NCBI GenBank assembly: GCA_902769705.1
Contig: CACXPX010000006.1
Span: 53,127-117,126 of the forward strand
Origin: an uncultured Prevotellaceae bacterium
GTDB taxonomy: Bacteria; Bacteroidota; Bacteroidia; Bacteroidales; Bacteroidaceae
Reading direction: 5' to 3'
DNA length: 64,000 nucleotides
The translations under genes and the position numbers were made by a program. The notes beneath the pieces are model-generated. The model did no database searches, was not told the DNA's origin, and worked only from the letters and a program-made list of their open reading frames with translations. The stretch's first letter is position 1; each line of letters starts with the position of its first letter. Below, one piece after another: positions 8,665-62,389 of the stretch.

Positions 8665-8678
8665 GCCCTTGCCCTTAC

Positions 8679-8765
8679 ATGTGGTCTTTAAGTTTGCTAT
8701 ATGAGGCTTTTAACCTCGCTATATGTGGCCTTTGACCTCGCCATTTGGGCTCTTTGCTCACATTA
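8679..8765 (-). repeat. 22-bp-period tandem repeat, locus A (about 4 units)
   Basis: Three contiguous 22-bp units (8679-8700, 8701-8722, 8723-8744) share ATGTGG or ATGAGG followed by a CTTTGACCTCGCTAT-like stretch, with a decayed fourth unit after them. Unit 3 closely matches one unit of the array after fbp (core TGTGGtCTTTGACC). On the minus strand the units read GCCACA, the orientation of the other loci. The array lies between the convergent GH9 gene and the 9439 hydrolase gene, about 140 nt past the GH9 stop. Confidence 0.75.
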
Positions 8766-8777
8766 TTGGTGGCATTA

Positions 8778-8866
8778 GGGGGGGGCACTTGTGTTTTTTG
8801 CGGTGCTGGAGATGTTTTTCTTCGCCCAGGAGATGGCGTAGGGGGGGGCATGCATTTCCCAATGCA
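8778..8866 (+). repeat. Two G8 tracts in a TAGGGGGGGGCA direct repeat, plus a hairpin
   Basis: TAGGGGGGGGCA occurs twice, with the G runs at 8778-8785 and 8841-8848, 63 bp apart. TGCATT-TCCC-AATGCA (8851-8866) follows the second. No gene is present. The G runs could slip during replication. Confidence 0.6.
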
Positions 8867-8916: not shown

Positions 8917-9125
8917 AGCTGACAGTTGACAGTTGACAGTTTTTTAAATGTCAAGTTTTTGGGGAAAAAGAGGGTATTGTTAGTAAGGGTTTAATAATAA
9001 TAAATATAATATTATAATAATATATATAATATATGTTAATTATATATTACTTTATTCCTGTAGTTGGACAAGAAAAAGTGGGTTGTTATGGTAAAAAAGA
9101 AACTGTCAACTGTCAGCTGTCAGCT
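8917..9125. repeat. 209-bp inverted-repeat element with heptamer arms and an A/T core (MITE-like)
   Basis: Arms of 25 bp at 8917-8941 and 9101-9125 are inverted copies with one mismatch. Each arm is itself a heptamer repeat (GTTGACA units). A T-run follows inside each arm. The core (about 8990-9050) is almost pure A/T. No coding capacity is convincing. It could be a miniature transposable element or a structured spacer; no target-site duplication was recognised. Confidence 0.6.
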
Positions 9126-10512: not shown

Positions 10513-10600
10513 CACAAGATACATTTATGTGCGTCAGATGTGGCATATGAGGGGCTCAGATGTGGCATATGAGGAGCTCAGATGTGGCATATGAGCCAGT
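10513..10600 (-). repeat. 22-bp-period tandem repeat, locus B (3 near-identical units plus 1 decayed)
   Basis: Units at 10535-10556, 10557-10578 and 10579-10600 are almost identical, preceded by a diverged unit (10513-10534). Each contains CAGATGTGGCATATGAG, so the minus strand reads CTCATATGCCACATCTG. The array starts 7 nt after the stop codon of the minus-strand gene at 10608. In RNA, CTCATATGCCACATCTGAG can fold as a 7-bp stem with one mismatch and a 3-nt loop. Confidence 0.85.
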
Positions 10601-10607
10601 CGGGATT

Positions 10608-11297
10608 TCACTTTTTGTAGAACGTGATCCAATTTGTGCGGAAAGGGAAACTGAAGGATGACTTGCTCTCCGGGAAGCGCTCTTTTACTCGCCCTGAGTC
10701 GTCGCGATACCAAGCGTAGTTCCATCCGCTACCCATATCGAGATAGAGGGCGTGTGTGACCTTGTAGCCCGTAAGACAGCGCACGAACGACTCGTAGGTC
10801 AATACACGCTTGGTTTCGATGATGCACAGTCGTCCGTTCTTCTCGCAGAGGGCGCGGAAGATGTTTCGACGCGACTTCATTCTGGTAGAGAGCGGGCGTG
10901 CTTTGCCGTCTTTAACAATCAGCAGCTGGCAGAACCCCATGCTCCATCCGTTGGCGGTAGTGGGGTAGTCAACCTTGCGCACGAACTTCCAGCGGCCTTT
11001 TCTCCAGAGAAATCCGCCTGTGTTGGCCTTGCAACGATAGCCTTTCTTCATCACGCCGCCCGTGATGTGATTGTCTGCAATGTTCATGTGCTTGAACTCT
11101 GTAAGCAGTTCACCGGTGAAAGCGGCCTCGCAACAGAACTCGACATCTTTTTCTGAGGTCTTGGGCATCTTGCCGCACACGAGGTCTATGCGCGTGAAAT
11201 CGGGATAGTACACGTTCAGGTTGTTGGTGGTCTCCACAGTCACGGCATGGGCGTTCAGCGTGAAAAGGAGAAATAAACAGAGTAGGGGCTTGTACAT
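10608..11297 (-). CDS. Exported phosphodiester-glycosidase (NAGPA/DUF2233)-like protein
   Basis: The 229-residue protein starts at ATG 11295-11297, which gives a clean signal peptide (MYKPLLCLFLLFTLNAHA); the longer in-frame extension lacks one. After the signal, YYPDFTRIDLVCG, an interior LLIVKDGKARPL segment and a late HALYLDMGSGWNYAWY segment resemble the fold of phosphodiester glycosidases such as NAGPA, whose hallmark is a LDGGGS loop. Here the loop is LDMGSG, so catalysis is uncertain. It follows the small CxxC protein by 56 nt. A run of 22-bp repeats begins 7 nt after its stop. The family call is tentative. Confidence 0.6.
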   Translation of the reverse strand: MYKPLLCLFLLFTLNAHAVTVETTNNLNVYYPDFTRIDLVCGKMPKTSEKDVEFCCEAAFTGELLTEFKHMNIADNHITGGVMKKGYRCKANTGGFLWRKGRWKFVRKVDYPTTANGWSMGFCQLLIVKDGKARPLSTRMKSRRNIFRALCEKNGRLCIIETKRVLTYESFVRCLTGYKVTHALYLDMGSGWNYAWYRDDSGRVKERFPESKSSFSFPFRTNWITFYKK

Positions 11298-11353
11298 TTC
11301 TTCGAGGGTGTTTATGGGGGTGATGGGATGAATGGAAGTTATGAGAATGAGAT

Positions 11354-11641
11354 TCAAATGCCCAACTTCATTTTCACCCTCCAACGTACGCGATGGCAGA
11401 TGGGGCATTCGCTTCCGCATTTCTCTTTCGCGGTGATTTCCTGCCCCATGAGCTCTTTAGTGGCCCTGAGCGTGCTCTTCACGTTGTGCACTTCCCTGGC
11501 TTTCAGCACGTAGACATCTTCGTTTTTCAGGGGCTTGAAGCATATCAGCAGGCAGGCGATAGCGAGCGCACACGCAAGCATGGTGAGTACTTTCCTTGTG
11601 GTGTGCGTGGGCTTATTCTGAGTGTTCTTTTGTTTGTTCAT
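11354..11641 (-). CDS. Small single-pass membrane protein with C-terminal cysteine cluster
   Basis: The 95-residue protein has a basic N-terminus, one membrane segment (about 19-36, VLTMLACALAIACLLICF) and a C-terminal CGSECPICH motif that could bind zinc or form disulfides. I do not recognise the family. It lies 60 nt after the TPR/protease-like gene and 56 nt before the phosphodiester-glycosidase-like gene on the same strand, so it is probably the middle gene of a three-gene unit. The start gives an AT-rich leader typical of the phylum. Confidence 0.6.
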   Translation of the reverse strand: MNKQKNTQNKPTHTTRKVLTMLACALAIACLLICFKPLKNEDVYVLKAREVHNVKSTLRATKELMGQEITAKEKCGSECPICHRVRWRVKMKLGI

Positions 11642-18088: not shown

Positions 18089-19213
18089 TTAATCGTTTAA
18101 GAGCATGGGCATGATGAGCATCAGCACATCTTCGTTCTCGGGTTGCTCGGCAGGCACGATGATGCCAGCACGGCTGGGGTCTGCCAGTTCGATGACGACC
18201 TCATCACCTTCCAGATTGTTGAGAATCTCAGTGAGCGAGCTACCCTTGAAGCCGATGTTCATAGATTGTCCGTTGTATTCGCAAGTGATGACTTCCTTTG
18301 CGCTGGTGGCGAAGTCGATGTCTTCAGACGAGAGTTCCAGTTTTCCGGCTTCCAAGTGGAAACGGATGAGTTGGCTACTTTCGCTTGCGAAAGGCAACAC
18401 ACGGCGCAATGCTCCCATCAGCGAACGGCGGTCGATGGTGAGCTGGTTGGGGTTGTTTTGCGGAATCACAGAGTTGTAGTTGGGGTAGCGGCCGTCAATG
18501 AGTCGGCAAGAAAGACTGCCCTCGGCAAATGTGATTTCAGCGCTACGGTCGTTGAACTTGATAACTACGTCGCCGCCGTCTTTCGCCAATACGTTCTTCA
18601 GCAATGTAGCGGGTTTCTTGGGAAGGATGAACGAAGCGGGCGAGTCGCTCTTCACGGCGAAGTTCTTGTTGCGCACTAGCTTGTGTCCGTCGCTTGCTAC
18701 AACGGCCAAGCTCTCTGAAGTCAAGTCAAAGAAAATGCCGTTCATCACAGGACGAAGCTCGTCTTGAGCGGTGGCAAAAAGCGAACGCGAGATGTTGTTG
18801 CTGAGGGTTGCCGAGTCAAGAGTGATGACCGTTGCACCATCGGCAATCTGTTGTACGCGCGGATATTCGGCAGCATTTTGAGCCGTGAACTTGTACACAC
18901 CATTCTGATAAGCGATAGTGATGGTGTAGTTGTCGGTGTTCACATCGAAAGTCAACGGCTGCTCAGCCAACTCTTTCACGGCGTCGAGCAAAGTGCGGTT
19001 GGGAACGGCAAAACTGCCCTCACCATCGCACTCGTCGAGGGCGAGCGAAGACTTCATCACGTTTTCGCTATCACTGGCGGTGATGAAAATCTGCTGGTCG
19101 TGTACTTCGAAAAGAAAACTATCAAGGATGGGCAGAGAGTTTTTGCTGTTGATGACTCTTGCCAAGGTTTGAAGACGGCTGCTCAAAGCAGTGCTGGATA
19201 ATGTAAATCTCAT
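18089..19213 (-). CDS. dnaN: DNA polymerase III beta subunit (sliding clamp)
   Basis: The 374-residue protein has the three tandem clamp domains. Recognisable blocks include NSLPILDSFLFEV near residue 30, NGIFFDLTSESLAVVASDGHKLV in the middle, RLIDGRYPNY, and the C-terminal LMLIMPMLLND. It forms the dimeric ring that tethers polymerases. It is first in the operon dnaN - exonuclease - coaBC - porD - recN. A strong promoter lies on the minus strand at 19256-19287. No dnaA gene is beside it. Confidence 0.97.
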   Translation of the reverse strand: MRFTLSSTALSSRLQTLARVINSKNSLPILDSFLFEVHDQQIFITASDSENVMKSSLALDECDGEGSFAVPNRTLLDAVKELAEQPLTFDVNTDNYTITIAYQNGVYKFTAQNAAEYPRVQQIADGATVITLDSATLSNNISRSLFATAQDELRPVMNGIFFDLTSESLAVVASDGHKLVRNKNFAVKSDSPASFILPKKPATLLKNVLAKDGGDVVIKFNDRSAEITFAEGSLSCRLIDGRYPNYNSVIPQNNPNQLTIDRRSLMGALRRVLPFASESSQLIRFHLEAGKLELSSEDIDFATSAKEVITCEYNGQSMNIGFKGSSLTEILNNLEGDEVVIELADPSRAGIIVPAEQPENEDVLMLIMPMLLND

Positions 19214-19978: not shown

Positions 19979-20088
19979 TCATAAAGCCTCTTTGAGTTTG
20001 TCATTGATGGCAAATGAGCGTGTCATTTGTGGCTAATGAGGGCGTCATTTGTGGTCTTTGACCGCGTCATTTGTGGCTAATGACAATT
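19979..20088 (-). repeat. 22-bp-period tandem repeat, locus C (5 units)
   Basis: Contiguous units begin at 19979, 20001, 20023, 20045 and 20067. On the minus strand, the sense of fbp, the best units read TCATTAGCCACAAATGA. The array begins 4 nt after the fbp stop codon (20093-20095). Units that depart from consensus often stay self-complementary: GGTC-AAA-GACC in one, TCATT-N7-AATGA with a different loop in another. Confidence 0.85.
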
Positions 20089-20092
20089 GCAC

Positions 20093-22078
20093 TTATTTCT
20101 TTCCTTCGCTCTCCTTGATGAACCCGTGACGGTAAGCGTAGAGCAATTCTTGAAGGTCGGCAATCTGTTGGCGCAGTTCGTCTCCTCGGTCGGTGTCGGC
20201 CACAAGCATGCGATGGTTGGCCATTTCAACGATTTGTGTCGTGCTTTTGATGTCGGTTCCTCTGAGAATGGCGTCTCGAGTGCTGGTAAAAGGCTCGTGT
20301 TGCACAAGTTCGAAGCCTCGACTATGATAAACAAGCGTGTAACCAGCGATTCCAGTTTCTTTATGGTAGGCTTGTGAGAATCCGCCGTCGATGACCATCA
20401 GCCGACCTCCTGCTTTGATGGGGTTCTCTCCACTTGCCACATGCACGGGCACATGACCGTTGATGATGTGTCGGTTGGGATCGTCAATGCCGAAAGCATC
20501 GAGTATCTTTTCGGCAATAGCTTGGTTGTCGCGCAAACGGAAGTAATTGCCTTTTTCCTCGTGCCAAGTTTCGCGTTCGTTGATGAAATAGCGTTCGAAA
20601 GTCGCCATTTTCGACTTGTCGAAGAGTGGGCTTTCAGGGCCGCACCAGAGGTAGAGGAAGTAATCGATGGCGTATTGTCGCTCATTGGCTTCGGTGTCGC
20701 TTTGGAAAGCCGAGCGTATGAGCATTCCCGTATGATGGAAGAGGTCTTTTCCGCTATATCGCCGACCGGGATAGATTTCAACTTCGCGCAAGGTTCCGTC
20801 TTCGTTGAGTGGAACGGCCGCATGGAAGAGCAAGTTGCCGTTGTAGACGGCGTACATGCACCCGTGTCGAAGAATGTTTCGGATGTGTTTGCGCAACTTC
20901 TCGCTCACCATGAACGAATGGTGAAGCTTCTGCATGAGGACGGTTTCTTCCTCGGTCAGGCTATTCGGGTCGTCGGGATTGATGGTTGGGAAGTGGTTGC
21001 TGAGCAGCTGATAGTCTTTCCCATCGAGATGAATTGTGCCTTTTTCGTAGTCAATCATGCTAAAGAGCTCTCTTCCTTGCATGTTCCACTCGGGGTGGCG
21101 GTTGAAGATTTGCGCTTCCAGTTTGAACTGAATGACGGCGATAGCTTTGTGCATGAGTGCCGTCAGGCGTTTGGTTTTTTCGTCAATGTTCTCGGCTCCG
21201 CCACTCAAACTGGGTTGAAATTCTTTGCATGGGTCGTCGCCATAGGTTTCCATTGCGAATGTGGCAAGGGGAACGAGGTTGATGCCATATCCGTCTTCGA
21301 GAGTTGTGAGATTGGCGTAGCGCAACGATAGGCGTATGACATTGCAGATGCAGGCATCGTTTCCAGCACAAGCGCCCATCCACAGGATGTCGTGATTACC
21401 CCAAGTGATGTCCCAGTTGTGGTAATGGGCAAGTGTGTCCATGATGATGTGTGCACCAGGCCCTCTGTCGTAAATGTCGCCAAGAATGTGAAGTTGATCG
21501 ATGGCGAGGCGTTGGATAACTGTTGATATGGCGATGATGAAATCATCAGCACGTCCCGTTGAGATGATGGTGTCGATGATGACGTTCACATATGCTGTCT
21601 TATTGGCGTCTTCTGTGCGTTCGTGAAGCAGTTCCTGTATGATGTAGCTGAAGTCTTCGGGAAGGGATTTGCGAACTTTCGAACGTGTGTATTTGCTGGA
21701 AACATCACGGCAGATGGCCACAAGTTGGTGAATGGTGATGTGGTACCAGTCGTTGATGTCTTCTTCTTTGGCTTTCACCAGTTCGAGTTTCTGCTCGGGA
21801 TAATATATGAGTGAGCAAAGTTCGCGGATTTCTGTTTCGCGAAGCGTGTTTCCATAGAGTTCGTTGACTTTTCTCTTGATGTTTCCCGATGCATTTTTCA
21901 ACACGTGCTGGAAAGCTTCGTGCTCACCGTGAATGTCTGCAAGAAAGTGCTCGGTGCCTTTCGGCAGGTTCAAGATGGCTTGCAGGTTGATGATTTCGGT
22001 GCTTGCTTCGGCGATTGTTGGGAACGATTGTGCCAACAATTGCAGATAGTGCATGTCTTTATCGATGTTATAACTCAT
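20093..22078 (-). CDS. fbp: Fructose-1,6-bisphosphatase class III
   Basis: The 661-residue protein belongs to the class III FBPases found in Firmicutes and Bacteroidetes, built on a metallophosphatase core: LADIHGEHEAFQ (about 43-54), LGDIYDRGPGAH, WGNHDILWMGA and, late in the sequence, NGHVPVHVASGENP. It dephosphorylates fructose 1,6-bisphosphate for gluconeogenesis and is manganese-dependent in characterised members. Length fits the family (about 640-670). No U-rich terminator follows the stop; instead the 22-bp repeat array begins 4 nt later. It is the last gene of a long minus-strand run, with about 46 nt to the preceding gene. Confidence 0.96.
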   Translation of the reverse strand: MSYNIDKDMHYLQLLAQSFPTIAEASTEIINLQAILNLPKGTEHFLADIHGEHEAFQHVLKNASGNIKRKVNELYGNTLRETEIRELCSLIYYPEQKLELVKAKEEDINDWYHITIHQLVAICRDVSSKYTRSKVRKSLPEDFSYIIQELLHERTEDANKTAYVNVIIDTIISTGRADDFIIAISTVIQRLAIDQLHILGDIYDRGPGAHIIMDTLAHYHNWDITWGNHDILWMGACAGNDACICNVIRLSLRYANLTTLEDGYGINLVPLATFAMETYGDDPCKEFQPSLSGGAENIDEKTKRLTALMHKAIAVIQFKLEAQIFNRHPEWNMQGRELFSMIDYEKGTIHLDGKDYQLLSNHFPTINPDDPNSLTEEETVLMQKLHHSFMVSEKLRKHIRNILRHGCMYAVYNGNLLFHAAVPLNEDGTLREVEIYPGRRYSGKDLFHHTGMLIRSAFQSDTEANERQYAIDYFLYLWCGPESPLFDKSKMATFERYFINERETWHEEKGNYFRLRDNQAIAEKILDAFGIDDPNRHIINGHVPVHVASGENPIKAGGRLMVIDGGFSQAYHKETGIAGYTLVYHSRGFELVQHEPFTSTRDAILRGTDIKSTTQIVEMANHRMLVADTDRGDELRQQIADLQELLYAYRHGFIKESEGKK

Positions 22079-35457: not shown

Positions 35458-35592
35458 GTACAGTATTACAGTTACAGTTTACTTTAATGTAATGTAATAG
35501 TGAGTTTATTTATATATATATAATAAATTATATATATATAAATAAAAATTCTTATACCACTTTTTCTCGATAAAAAAACTGTTATACTGTAC
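35458..35592. repeat. 135-bp nested inverted repeat centred on an A/T palindrome
   Basis: An inner perfect inverted repeat has 20-bp arms (35505-35524 and 35527-35546) made only of A and T with a 2-nt spacer. An outer inverted repeat, GTACAGTATTACAGTT (35458-35473) against its near-complement (35577-35592, 15 of 16), has the same centre, about 35525. A further palindrome GTACG-TT-CGTAC sits at 35589-35600. The element lies exactly where transcription diverges. Confidence 0.8.
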
Positions 35593-35890: not shown

Positions 35891-36034
35891 TCATTAGCCC
35901 CTAATGGGAGTGTCATTAACCACAAATGAGCCTGTCATTAGCCACAAATGAGCCTGTCATTAGCCACAAATGGGCCTGTCATTAGCCACAAATGAGCGTG
36001 TCATTAGCCCCTTATGGGAACCTCATTTATCACG
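35891..36034 (+). repeat. 22-bp-period tandem repeat, locus D (6 full units plus 1 partial)
   Basis: Units start at 35891, 35913, 35935, 35957, 35979, 36001 and 36023 (partial), spaced exactly 22 bp. The consensus core is TCATTAGCCACAAATGA followed by about 5 nt (GCCTG). TCATT and AATGA are reverse complements around a 7-nt centre. Unit 1 changes the centre to keep CATTAG-CCC-CTAATG pairing. The array begins 43 nt after the stop of the 74-codon gene, in the same strand sense. Confidence 0.9.
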
Positions 36035-36294
36035 TTACACTTTTACATACAAAAGTCAACAAAGCGAGGATGTGGATTAAAAAAAAGAATGGAAGGTTGG
36101 AAATAGTAAAAAGTATAACATGTGTATATCTGTAACAAAAAAAACACCGGACTTAGGTTTCGTGGTGCAAAGAGAAGAAAAATAAACTGAAATAATATGT
36201 AAAAATCCCGCTTTTCCCCCGAAAAAGTTCATCTGTTCAGAAAAAGTTCTTATTTTTGCGGACGACTTATTATTAACTGTTTAATTACAATTTT
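36035..36294 (+). promoter_or_regulatory. Leader region of the TlpA-like gene
   Basis: This is AT-rich and holds no gene. TATTTTTG (36251-36258) is the probable -7 element. The decamer GAAAAAGTTC occurs twice (36221-36230 and 36240-36249), 19 bp apart start to start, immediately upstream, where an operator could lie. Confidence 0.5.
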
Positions 36295-37473: not shown

Positions 37474-37587
37474 AGGCATCTGTTAATTCTTGCCGATGAA
37501 GAGCGTGACAAACATGCCGCTGTCATTATTCTCAGTAAGCGTCTTGTTCATCTGCATAGCGATTTCCATAGGTGCCTGTTGCTGCCT

Positions 37588-37653
37588 CGATGCCACAAGT
37601 GAGACTGTTAGAAGCCACAAGTGACACGGCCAGATGCCGCAAGAAGAGCTAAA
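37588..37653 (+). repeat. 22-bp-period tandem repeat, locus E (3 diverged units)
   Basis: Units at 37588-37609, 37610-37631 and 37632-37653 share GCCACAAGTGA or a decayed form (GCCGCAAGAAG). They lie 115 nt past the TlpA-like stop in the same strand sense. The rest of the 306-bp gap to the xylanase gene contains no gene, but includes a TACCTTTG -7 box at 37722-37729. Confidence 0.7.
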
Positions 37654-60881: not shown

Positions 60882-62309
60882 TCACTTCCCAAGAATGGCA
60901 TTCACCAGCGAGGTCACATCTGTGACAGTCAACTCTCCGTCGCCATCCATGTCACCCACTTGGGAAATGTTGACGGTCGTGGTGGCGGTATCTGAATCTG
61001 TATAGCCGTCGCGAGTTGCCTTAACGTTCACGGTGAACGATGTGCCGAGAGAAATCAATCCATCGGTACTCTGTCCCGTGTAACTAGCAGGAGTAATCGT
61101 ATAGACGTACGTCACGCCTTCAGTCTCGCATGTGCAGCGCACCTTTCCGTTTGCATAGGTGATGGTAGGCGTGGCGCATTTCTCAAGTGTAAAACCTACG
61201 ATGGTGCCAAACTTGCTCCATGGGGCGGTATTCTCGTAATCGGAAACAGAGCCTTCTGGCACATGCAATGTCGCAGATCGAATATAATCATAAGACGCAG
61301 ACCCCTCCTCATAAAAAGCATATGGATCGATTGTTGGAACAGTCTCTGCAAAGCAAAACACATCTTCTAATTTCGGACACCAAGCGAACGCACATACTCC
61401 TATGCTGGTCACAGAGTTGGGGATAGTGACGGAAGTGAGATCACTGCATTCACAGAACGCATAGTCTCCAATGCTGGTAACGGAGTTGGGGATGGTTACA
61501 GAGGTTGGGCCAGAGCAACCAGAGAACGCAGAATTGCCGATGCTGGTCACGCTGTTGGGGATAACCAGATCTTTCACTTCTTCACCATTCAAGTATAAAT
61601 AATGAGCATAGTATAGTGGACTGGCATAATAATTACTAAATGAAATGTTACACCATGCCTCTAGGTCGGATATCTGTACGGAGGTGAGGCCAGAGCACTT
61701 ATAGAACGCCGATTCGCCGATGCTGGTCACACTGTTGCCGATGGTGACGGAGGTCAGGCTGGAGCAACCCCAGAACGCAGAGCTTCCAATGCTGGTCACA
61801 GAGTTACCAATGGTCACGGAGGTGAGACTGGAGCAATCCTCGAAAGCACTCCATCCAATGCTGGTCACAGAATTGGGGATGGTCACGGAGGTGAGCCCAG
61901 AGCAGCCAGAGAAAGCACTCCCTCCAATGCTGGTCACACTGTTGGGGATGGTTACAGAGGTCATCTTGGAGCAAGACCGAAACGCAGATATTCCAATGTT
62001 GGTCACACTATTGGGGATGGTTACGGAGGTCAGGCCCGAACAACCAGAAAATGCACGCTCCCCGATGCTGGTTACATTACATGTCACACCATCGTATTCG
62101 ACGGTTTCAGGAATGACAACATCGCCAGAGTAAGAATTGTCATAAGGTTCATAAAGGGCATAATTTGCCCTTACCTCAGCCGTTTTATCTTCTGTGTTGA
62201 TGTAGTAGTTGATGTCATCAATCACGGCTGTTCCTGTGAATGCATTCGCCACCATAGGCATGAACATCAGCGCGGCGAGCAGAAGGAAAAAGGATTTCAT
62301 TCTTTTCAT
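60882..62309 (-). CDS. BspA-like leucine-rich-repeat surface protein with dockerin-like C-terminus
   Basis: The 475-residue protein has a signal peptide (about 1-23) and about nine 23-residue LRR_5/BspA repeats (LTSVTIPNSVTSIG ... SAF..CS), interrupted by a DLEAWCNISFSNYY segment near residue 215. A beta-rich domain (about 355-445) and an acidic DMDGDGELTVTDV half-dockerin, which resembles an EF-hand calcium loop, close the protein. BspA proteins of oral and gut Bacteroidetes bind host fibronectin or mediate co-aggregation. The nearly identical repeat DNA (69-bp period) allows copy-number change. Transcription starts from the minus-strand promoter at 62358-62389. Confidence 0.88.
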   Translation of the reverse strand: MKRMKSFFLLLAALMFMPMVANAFTGTAVIDDINYYINTEDKTAEVRANYALYEPYDNSYSGDVVIPETVEYDGVTCNVTSIGERAFSGCSGLTSVTIPNSVTNIGISAFRSCSKMTSVTIPNSVTSIGGSAFSGCSGLTSVTIPNSVTSIGWSAFEDCSSLTSVTIGNSVTSIGSSAFWGCSSLTSVTIGNSVTSIGESAFYKCSGLTSVQISDLEAWCNISFSNYYASPLYYAHYLYLNGEEVKDLVIPNSVTSIGNSAFSGCSGPTSVTIPNSVTSIGDYAFCECSDLTSVTIPNSVTSIGVCAFAWCPKLEDVFCFAETVPTIDPYAFYEEGSASYDYIRSATLHVPEGSVSDYENTAPWSKFGTIVGFTLEKCATPTITYANGKVRCTCETEGVTYVYTITPASYTGQSTDGLISLGTSFTVNVKATRDGYTDSDTATTTVNISQVGDMDGDGELTVTDVTSLVNAILGK

Positions 62310-62357
62310 TGCTTTATTGTGTTTAGTTGTTAACAATGGGTTAATAGATTTTCGTGG

Positions 62358-62389
62358 CAAAGATAATCAAATTCCAAATAAAAAGCAAA
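62358..62389 (-). promoter_or_regulatory. Promoter of the BspA-like gene
   Basis: Minus-strand TTTG (62386-62389), 20-nt spacer, TATCTTTG (62358-62365). Confidence 0.8.

Follow-up and report, generated by a model that had tools for sequence, protein, structure and literature searches.

Intergenic arrays with conserved 22-bp spacing and variable sequence in Prevotella: possible multi-site targets of a dimeric protein

Plasmid iterons and the TnsB sites at the ends of Tn7 are polar protein sites spaced by about 22 bp, with inverted sets at two sides. Within the Bacteroidales, the BrickBuilt MITE of Porphyromonas gingivalis has a 23-nt unit, is present at 19 loci and shows 0–6% indels within elements (passages of PMC4596501). 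For Escherichia coli, a gyrase motif has been described that is symmetric and has a 10.75-bp GC periodicity, with cleavage sites enriched in BIME-2 (passages of PMC6379681). Full-text searches of the open-access literature listed no title on 22-bp arrays of Prevotella, and the searched passages of PMC5771137 describe none.

A preliminary description of the window, by which we mean the whole 64,000-nt stretch of DNA that was analysed, had reported units in 22-bp register at five loci. All five arrays are present and could be printed in register, and Tandem Repeats Finder returned a period of 22 at each of them. Self-comparison of the window, with a threshold of 24 identical bases in 30, gave five clusters at a shift of 22 and two at 44, with none at other shifts from 12 to 43. 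The pattern TCA-N11-TGA-N5-TCA-N11-TGA has seven matches in the window, distributed over three of the five arrays, compared with none in 100 dinucleotide shuffles. At a looser threshold (23/30), an AT-rich palindromic stretch at 35505–35557, TTATATATATATAA, mimics a 22-bp repeat; as a 22-bp array it is taken as a false positive.

Array A (8675–8784) consists of about four to five degenerate 22-bp units, beginning TTACATGTGGTCTTTAA, CTATATGAGGCTTTTAA, CTATATGTGGCCTTTGA and CCATTTGGGCTCTTTGC. It occupies a convergent gap whose two neighbours are a gene for a family 9 glycosyl hydrolase and one whose PETase-like match is weak and below the cut-off. Array B (10534–10599) contains three identical 17-bp units, TCAGATGTGGCATATGA, and its end lies 8 bp from the stop codon of a minus-strand gene (10608–11408). 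Array C (19979–20088) has five units, also in a convergent gap, between a plus-strand DUF3127 gene and a minus-strand fructose-1,6-bisphosphatase (FBPase) gene (20093–22078). Array D (35891–36039) is composed of six good units of the form TCATTARCC..WATGR together with one decayed unit, separated by the spacers GCCTG, GCGTG, GAGTG or GAACC, and is located 43 bp past a short plus-strand ORF and ahead of a gene with a thioredoxin-like domain. Array E (37586–37651), with the three units CTCGATGCCACAAGTGA, TTAGAAGCCACAAGTGA and CCAGATGCCGCAAGAAG, the last of which is decayed, sits between two plus-strand genes. Each of the five arrays lies 3' of some gene. A search of the window and of four further stretches (L043, L045, L048 and L032) against Rfam yielded, at or above the gathering score, only two tRNAs, neither of them at an array. 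A single core common to all arrays, as originally proposed, did not hold up: TCATTAGCCACAAATGA occurs exactly in two of the five arrays, at positions 35935 and 35979 and, as the reverse complement, at 20023 and 20067. The three arrays without this core keep the frame only, namely outer triplets near TCA...TGA, 17 bp across, followed by 5 bp. Two other repeats are also present in the window. Tandem repeats of 69 bp (23 codons) at 61386–62076 lie within a minus-strand ORF (60882–62360) that we take to resemble a leucine-rich-repeat surface protein gene. TGACAGT-type 7-bp repeats in gene gaps, at window positions 8920–8941 and in a stretch from another species of the genus (L073), are a separate repeat habit unrelated to the 22-bp arrays.

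The two-unit pattern, with up to three mismatches allowed, matched the whole source genome 56 times in the forward and 47 times in the reverse orientation, compared with 0 for the reversed control, bearing out a genome-wide family. A 464-kb sample of this genome, comprising the window and 20 further stretches, gave 31 clusters at a shift of 22, 18 at 44 and 6 at 66, with no other shift from 15 to 65 exceeding two; part of the sample was picked for holding matches, so that array density within it is not unbiased. In the intergenic DNA of the source genome, TCA-N11-TGA occurs as 143 words, compared with 15–32 for any other gap from N4 to N29. These words are spaced by 22 bp (72 pairs), 44 bp (52) or 66 bp (32), and no intergenic pairs were found at other distances up to 70 bp. 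Both the self-comparison and the spacing of the outer triplets show the period kept at 22 bp in this sample, and the outcome that would have refuted the preliminary description did not arise. The 22-bp observation is confirmed and is larger than first claimed.

A unit consists of 17 bp bounded by two-sided outer triplets, plus a spacer of 5 bp, and it is this geometry that is conserved, not a single core. Among 285 distinct units from 64 arrays of the source genome, chosen by a rule that required A3 and T15, the majority bases are T1, C2, G16 and A17, with weaker preferences for G7 and C11 and with few inner words. Complementarity within the unit is above expectation at pairs 1–17, 2–16, 4–14, 6–12 and 7–11, with no excess at 5–13 or 8–10, and the dyads are imperfect. 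Unlike units adjoin in unbroken register. At 18758–19021 of stretch L045, units of the types TCACTTGTGGC.. and TAAAATAATTTATTTTG are consecutive in one array with the 22-bp register unbroken. The short palindromes GTTCGCGAAC and ACTCGAGT are present at a 22-bp repeat in L143 (15550–15629) and L128 (265–326), with the DNA between copies inverted around the middle copy.

Three kinds of array were distinguished in the source genome. Kind (a) is dispersed, spans about 390 bp and is made up of a leader, an array of five to seven units and a tail (ten copies aligned). Kind (b) is centred on three to five, mostly four, units of the TAAAATAAATTATTTTA type (TAAAAT); three-unit matches to this type number 77 forward and 77 reverse, the type being palindromic and the two sets overlapping. 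Kind (c), assigned by inspection, has neither leader and tail nor central block, and includes all five window arrays. The flanks of 15 kind (b) arrays were analysed with units defined by register alone, without a content filter, and with the right side reverse-complemented. The second unit out has C2 in 28 of 30 cases, A3 in 30 of 30 and T15 in 29 of 30, and the first unit has G22 in 30 of 30. In the pooled flanks, T1 C2 A3, T13 and T15 recur as far as the third unit, and the spacer is approximately Y-G-T-N-G at the second and third units and Y-S-W-A-G beside the central block. The polarity is opposite on the two sides of these arrays: flank units are polar and point inward to the AT-rich centre.

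The outer flanks of the 15 TAAAAT-centred arrays gave 0 cross-hits. Flank interiors compared within an array and between arrays gave values of 0.385 versus 0.368 ± 0.031 and of 0.464 versus 0.392 ± 0.033, the latter difference amounting to about two s.d. Adjacent units also share words in the wider unit set, and together with this one neighbour excess this shows that duplication or conversion is at work as well. In comparisons with other arrays, innermost flank units were closer to units of their own side than to those of the opposite side (9 of 500 label swaps), a bias that was absent at the second and third flank units; the two sides of an array are therefore not equivalent. On balance, the flank pattern fits sites under one motif better than it fits copies or folded RNA.

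Arrays called in five sets were intergenic in 78 of 78 cases (36 of 36 in the source genome), in agreement with the location first described. For this test, an array counted as "genic" when over half of it overlapped a gene called by a simple purpose-made gene caller, and arrays containing N or of low dinucleotide entropy were dropped, as were single-locus genomes with less than 15 kb readable. Among gaps of at least 60 bp, arrays are held by 24 of 81 convergent, 35 of 322 co-directional and 12 of 102 divergent gaps (p = 7e-5 for convergent versus co-directional and 0.0045 versus divergent). When the source genome was left out, the corresponding p values were 0.025 and 0.12. In a 480-kb sample of G084, another genome of the genus, 27 arrays are in convergent, 32 in co-directional and 9 in divergent gaps, against totals of 45, 140 and 39 such gaps, respectively, with one array at an edge; a single AT-rich stretch accounts for two of the divergent calls. 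Terminator-like sites were detected at 16 of 26 convergent 3' ends with an array versus 21 of 38 without in the source genome, and at 28 of 52 versus 20 of 36 in G084, with about half of the convergent array 3' ends yielding no such site. Where a terminator-like site was found in an array gap, it precedes the array in 17 of 20 cases in the source genome and 38 of 45 in G084. In co-directional gaps of G084, such sites are commoner with an array (17 of 31) than without (29 of 108). The notion that arrays replace terminators was rejected, given that array gaps show no shortage of terminator-like sites.

A 22-bp peak formed by unrelated units was also observed in stretches of G016, G084, G076 and 20 other genomes of the genus (18 readable). 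Clusters at 22 compared with the mean of other shifts were 8 versus 0.22 for G016, 7 versus 0.02 for G084 and 6 versus 0.13 for G076; the set of other genus members gave 14 versus 1.61, with shift 21 reaching 10. Five further genus genomes (100 kb) gave six clusters at 22, one of them a GA run, and five at 14. Beyond the genus the peak is weak at best, with six clusters at 22 in 255 kb and one in 60 kb for other genera of the family, and two in 289 kb for other families of the order. At 80 FBPase loci (1.02 Mb), 20 clusters at 22, 11 at 44 and 6 at 66 were found, involving 16 of the 80 loci; the competing shifts of 14 (21 clusters), 16 (15) and 21 (16) at the same loci probably reflect other short repeats.

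The exact three-unit TCA frame is present in 24 of 298 genus genomes, including the source genome, and ten of these hold it at five or more places (180 places in the source genome, 79 in G427, 54 in G141 and 32 in G038). The interiors within this frame differ among genomes where shown, and some of the remaining genomes have a single array of like copies. The reversed control, an AGT-N11-ACT frame, matched ten genomes (30 matches in G118, 15 in G032, 11 in G417 and fewer in the other seven), which looks like a further anchor dialect rather than noise. In G084, AAAA-N7-TTTT words are spaced by 22 bp (132 pairs) or 44 bp (67), with few pairs elsewhere. A stop-codon cassette, with TGA in shifting frames every 22 bp, was discarded as an explanation, given that by inspection the units of other species contain no TGA.

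The nearest relative found is Prevotella sp. RGIG7546 (stretch L165; genome G326), with 94% protein identity. Its FBPase gap contains an array at the place of array C, in register. G326 has 278 two-unit places, and its TCA-N11-TGA words are spaced by 22 bp (53 pairs), 44 bp (36) or 66 bp (20), with one pair at each of five other distances; the favoured interiors of the source species and G326 differ. For 16 aligned units from three orthologous loci, identical bases numbered 84 of 96 in anchors, 86 of 176 in interiors and 44 of 80 in spacers, with the corresponding identities for unaligned unit pairs being 0.85–0.87, 0.39–0.40 and 0.31–0.38. The remainder of the FBPase gap is identical at 120 of 160 positions, and long gene-containing blocks are about 75–89% identical. 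Orthologous anchors are thus at the level of the family, with interiors retaining little ancestry and spacers more. Given that orthologous anchors (0.88) match no better than those of unrelated units (0.85–0.87), this comparison alone does not demonstrate selection on anchors: the pattern is expected from mutation under a held motif and also from unit replacement. At a fourth orthologous locus, an array was recognized by eye in both species, with the TAAAAT block present in the source species only. One further stretch (L037/L249), in which each species has a leader-bearing array and the gaps are not alike, was not counted.

Some arrays are apparently carried and spread by mobile elements. The kind (a) leader pattern has 26 matches in the source genome, whereas a search of 60 other genomes of the family returned none, and a similar leader-bearing element with other units is present in the sister genome G326. 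In G084 (480 kb, partly selected near matches), 64 of 69 arrays are made of exactly four units and are located within or close to a single kind of dispersed element, about 190 bp long and bounded by TGTAAA-like inverted ends, for which 56 left ends pair with a right end about 170 bp off. The arrays of G084 use three inner words in few orders. With 64 of 69 arrays being four-unit arrays in or near one element, a selfish element alone could suffice in that genome. Two possible orientation rules for G084 were discarded. Array orientation seemed to follow replication among the matches listed, but the sampled stretches hold both orientations, and the 20 of 29 oriented arrays that point one way relative to co-directional genes were not convincing. 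Viral contigs contained 11 stretches with the three-unit TCA pattern, 10 of which showed 22-bp self-similarity and at least two of which are, by eye, 11-bp tandem repeats. The three-unit string at position 1577 of viral contig IMGVR_UViG_2799112963_000010 (L266) is identical to one in genome G340, and this common string suggests that arrays may ride on or border prophages.

We favour, with a probability of about 0.42, the reading that the arrays are multi-site DNA targets of a putative dimeric protein and have been spread in part by MITE-like elements. Each 22-bp unit would be one dimer site with inverted outer half-sites, TCA and TGA in the source genome, 17 bp across, and successive dimers would occupy one helical face at intervals of two turns. 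The earlier suggestion that a protein on every unit could line up on one face of the DNA is supported. Anchors and register would be maintained, possibly by selection on the motif, with the inner bases loosely constrained and turning over by mutation or in-register unit exchange. In the best-resolved class, polar sites would face inward from both sides toward a central AT-rich block about four units long. Some of the arrays would be dispersed within MITE-like elements (about 390 bp in the source genome and about 190 bp in G084), and such dispersal would account for copy number and species-specific sequence. The role is likely to be at the level of the chromosome, such as local folding, supercoil handling or insulation of gene gaps, above all convergent ones. 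The register, the anchors matching a family motif, the free interiors, the inward polarity and the position mostly past terminator-like sites together point to protein sites in DNA. More tentatively, the arrays may constitute a class of chromosomal element across Prevotella with conserved spacing and variable sequence, whose dialect would change between species, presumably together with a fast-evolving putative host protein that organizes gene gaps.

The main rival is that the arrays are interiors of selfish, MITE-like elements resembling BrickBuilt from which the host gains nothing, the register being required by a transposase or recombinase or being a relic of in-register unit exchange. Such elements account for the dispersal, as seen in the leader-and-tail element of the source genome (26 leader matches versus 0 in 60 genomes), its counterpart with other units in G326 and the element with inverted ends in G084, and BrickBuilt itself provides a precedent (passages of PMC4596501). 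The finding that anchors at orthologous units are preserved no better than expected from the family motif also weighs down the dimer-site reading and raises the selfish one. The TAAAAT-centred arrays nevertheless keep a polar motif with outer flanks that are unrelated to each other, and arrays hold the same gap in register between species. Pairing of ends in the 480-kb G084 sample did not reveal a full-length parent with a transposase, and AAAA-N7-TTTT words are absent from the sole long end pair, which spans 1,516 bp in L164. We regard the selfish reading as somewhat less probable than the dimer-site reading.

A role as strong sites around which gyrase, a related topoisomerase or an HU-like protein wraps DNA, located where positive supercoils build up from convergent transcription, appears unlikely. 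Under this scheme, selection would act on AT/GC bendability alternating every 11 bp rather than on base-specific contact, which would explain free sequence at a fixed spacing. The 11-bp GC power indeed exceeded that of column-shuffled units in the source genome (5.63 versus 2.72), G016 (4.30 versus 1.81) and G084 (5.60 versus 1.95), and both the enrichment in convergent gaps and the two-sided inward polarity are consistent with such sites, for which the E. coli gyrase motif is a precedent (passages of PMC6379681). There was, however, no such excess in G326 (2.51 versus 2.40) or G076 (1.42 versus 2.04), and in two mixed sets (3.23 versus 2.21 and 3.49 versus 2.65) only 0.47 and 0.42 of arrays, respectively, beat their shuffles. 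Base-specific anchors that recur within a species are also not demanded by pure bendability.

Tandem 3'-end hairpins that terminate transcripts or protect mRNA are less probable still. Mean folding z values relative to shuffles of −2.98 for 39 source arrays, −1.55 for G016, −3.31 for G084, −1.20 for G076 and −3.72 for others, the complementarity excess at five symmetric pairs and the location of all five window arrays 3' of a gene are in keeping with such a role. Pairs 5–13 and 8–10 are nevertheless without excess, z is close to 0 or positive in several arrays, and mirror pairing in 51 arrays was null, with a mean z of −0.14 for units and 0.16 for spacers. Of 12 comparisons of a left flank with its own right flank, 11 fell within the control range and one, for positions 15–17 of the second unit, did not. 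These negative mirror and flank tests speak against a long hairpin spanning the array. Hairpins also need no exact 22-nt period. Given that the pairing tests failed and that most of the terminator-like sites found lie ahead of the arrays, the roles in transcript ends and in mRNA decay or stability raised in the preliminary description are disfavoured. Functionless minisatellites arising by replication slippage, with the period a historical accident, would suit the near-identical copies of some arrays (10534–10599; L067 of G076) but are the least credible explanation, given that several species share this period although their units are unrelated, that shifts from 13 to 69 other than multiples of 22 come nowhere near 22 in the source genome, G016 and G084, and that unlike units are adjacent in register.

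If the arrays are indeed targets of a dimeric protein, these chromosomes hold many helically phased protein arrays between genes, and conserved spacing combined with free sequence would be a sign of a multimeric protein-DNA assembly. The arrays could then serve as bait for fishing out the putative binding protein and as a test of how the specificity of a DNA-binding protein might change jointly with its numerous sites in the genome. Their polar spacing of about 22 bp with two inverted sides recalls plasmid iterons and TnsB end sites; they differ from these in occupying many chromosomal loci. The gyrase motif, as presented in passages of PMC6379681, is likewise symmetric, degenerate and helically periodic, whereas the present arrays have base-specific anchors and an 11-bp GC signal in some species only. 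REP/BIME sequences are nearest in style, being extragenic, many-copy, regularly spaced short palindromes with species-specific sequences (passages of PMC2817692 and PMC3733652), and the arrays could resemble them in working as gyrase or nucleoid sites. The arrays differ from REP/BIME, as characterized in those passages, in their strict 22-bp period and in having no fixed GTAG tag and no detected RAYT. Neither a GTAG nor a CGTC tag was apparent in base counts of 285 units and 120 flank units from the source genome, and a search of that genome (99.42% complete, 72 contigs) for RAYT (Y1 transposase, PF01797) gave no match, with 5 of 14 control genomes positive. BrickBuilt is nearest in kind: both are found between genes in Bacteroidales as tandem repeats with a unit of roughly two helical turns, and its leader and tail around the repeats, described in passages of PMC4596501, have parallels in the 390-bp and 190-bp elements. 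The source genome sample shows no 23-bp period of the BrickBuilt type, its period being 22. Compared with BrickBuilt as described in those passages, the arrays have a 22-bp unit, occupy many more sites, include some without leader or tail, among them the 15 TAAAAT-centred arrays, and combine unlike units in register with inward polarity.
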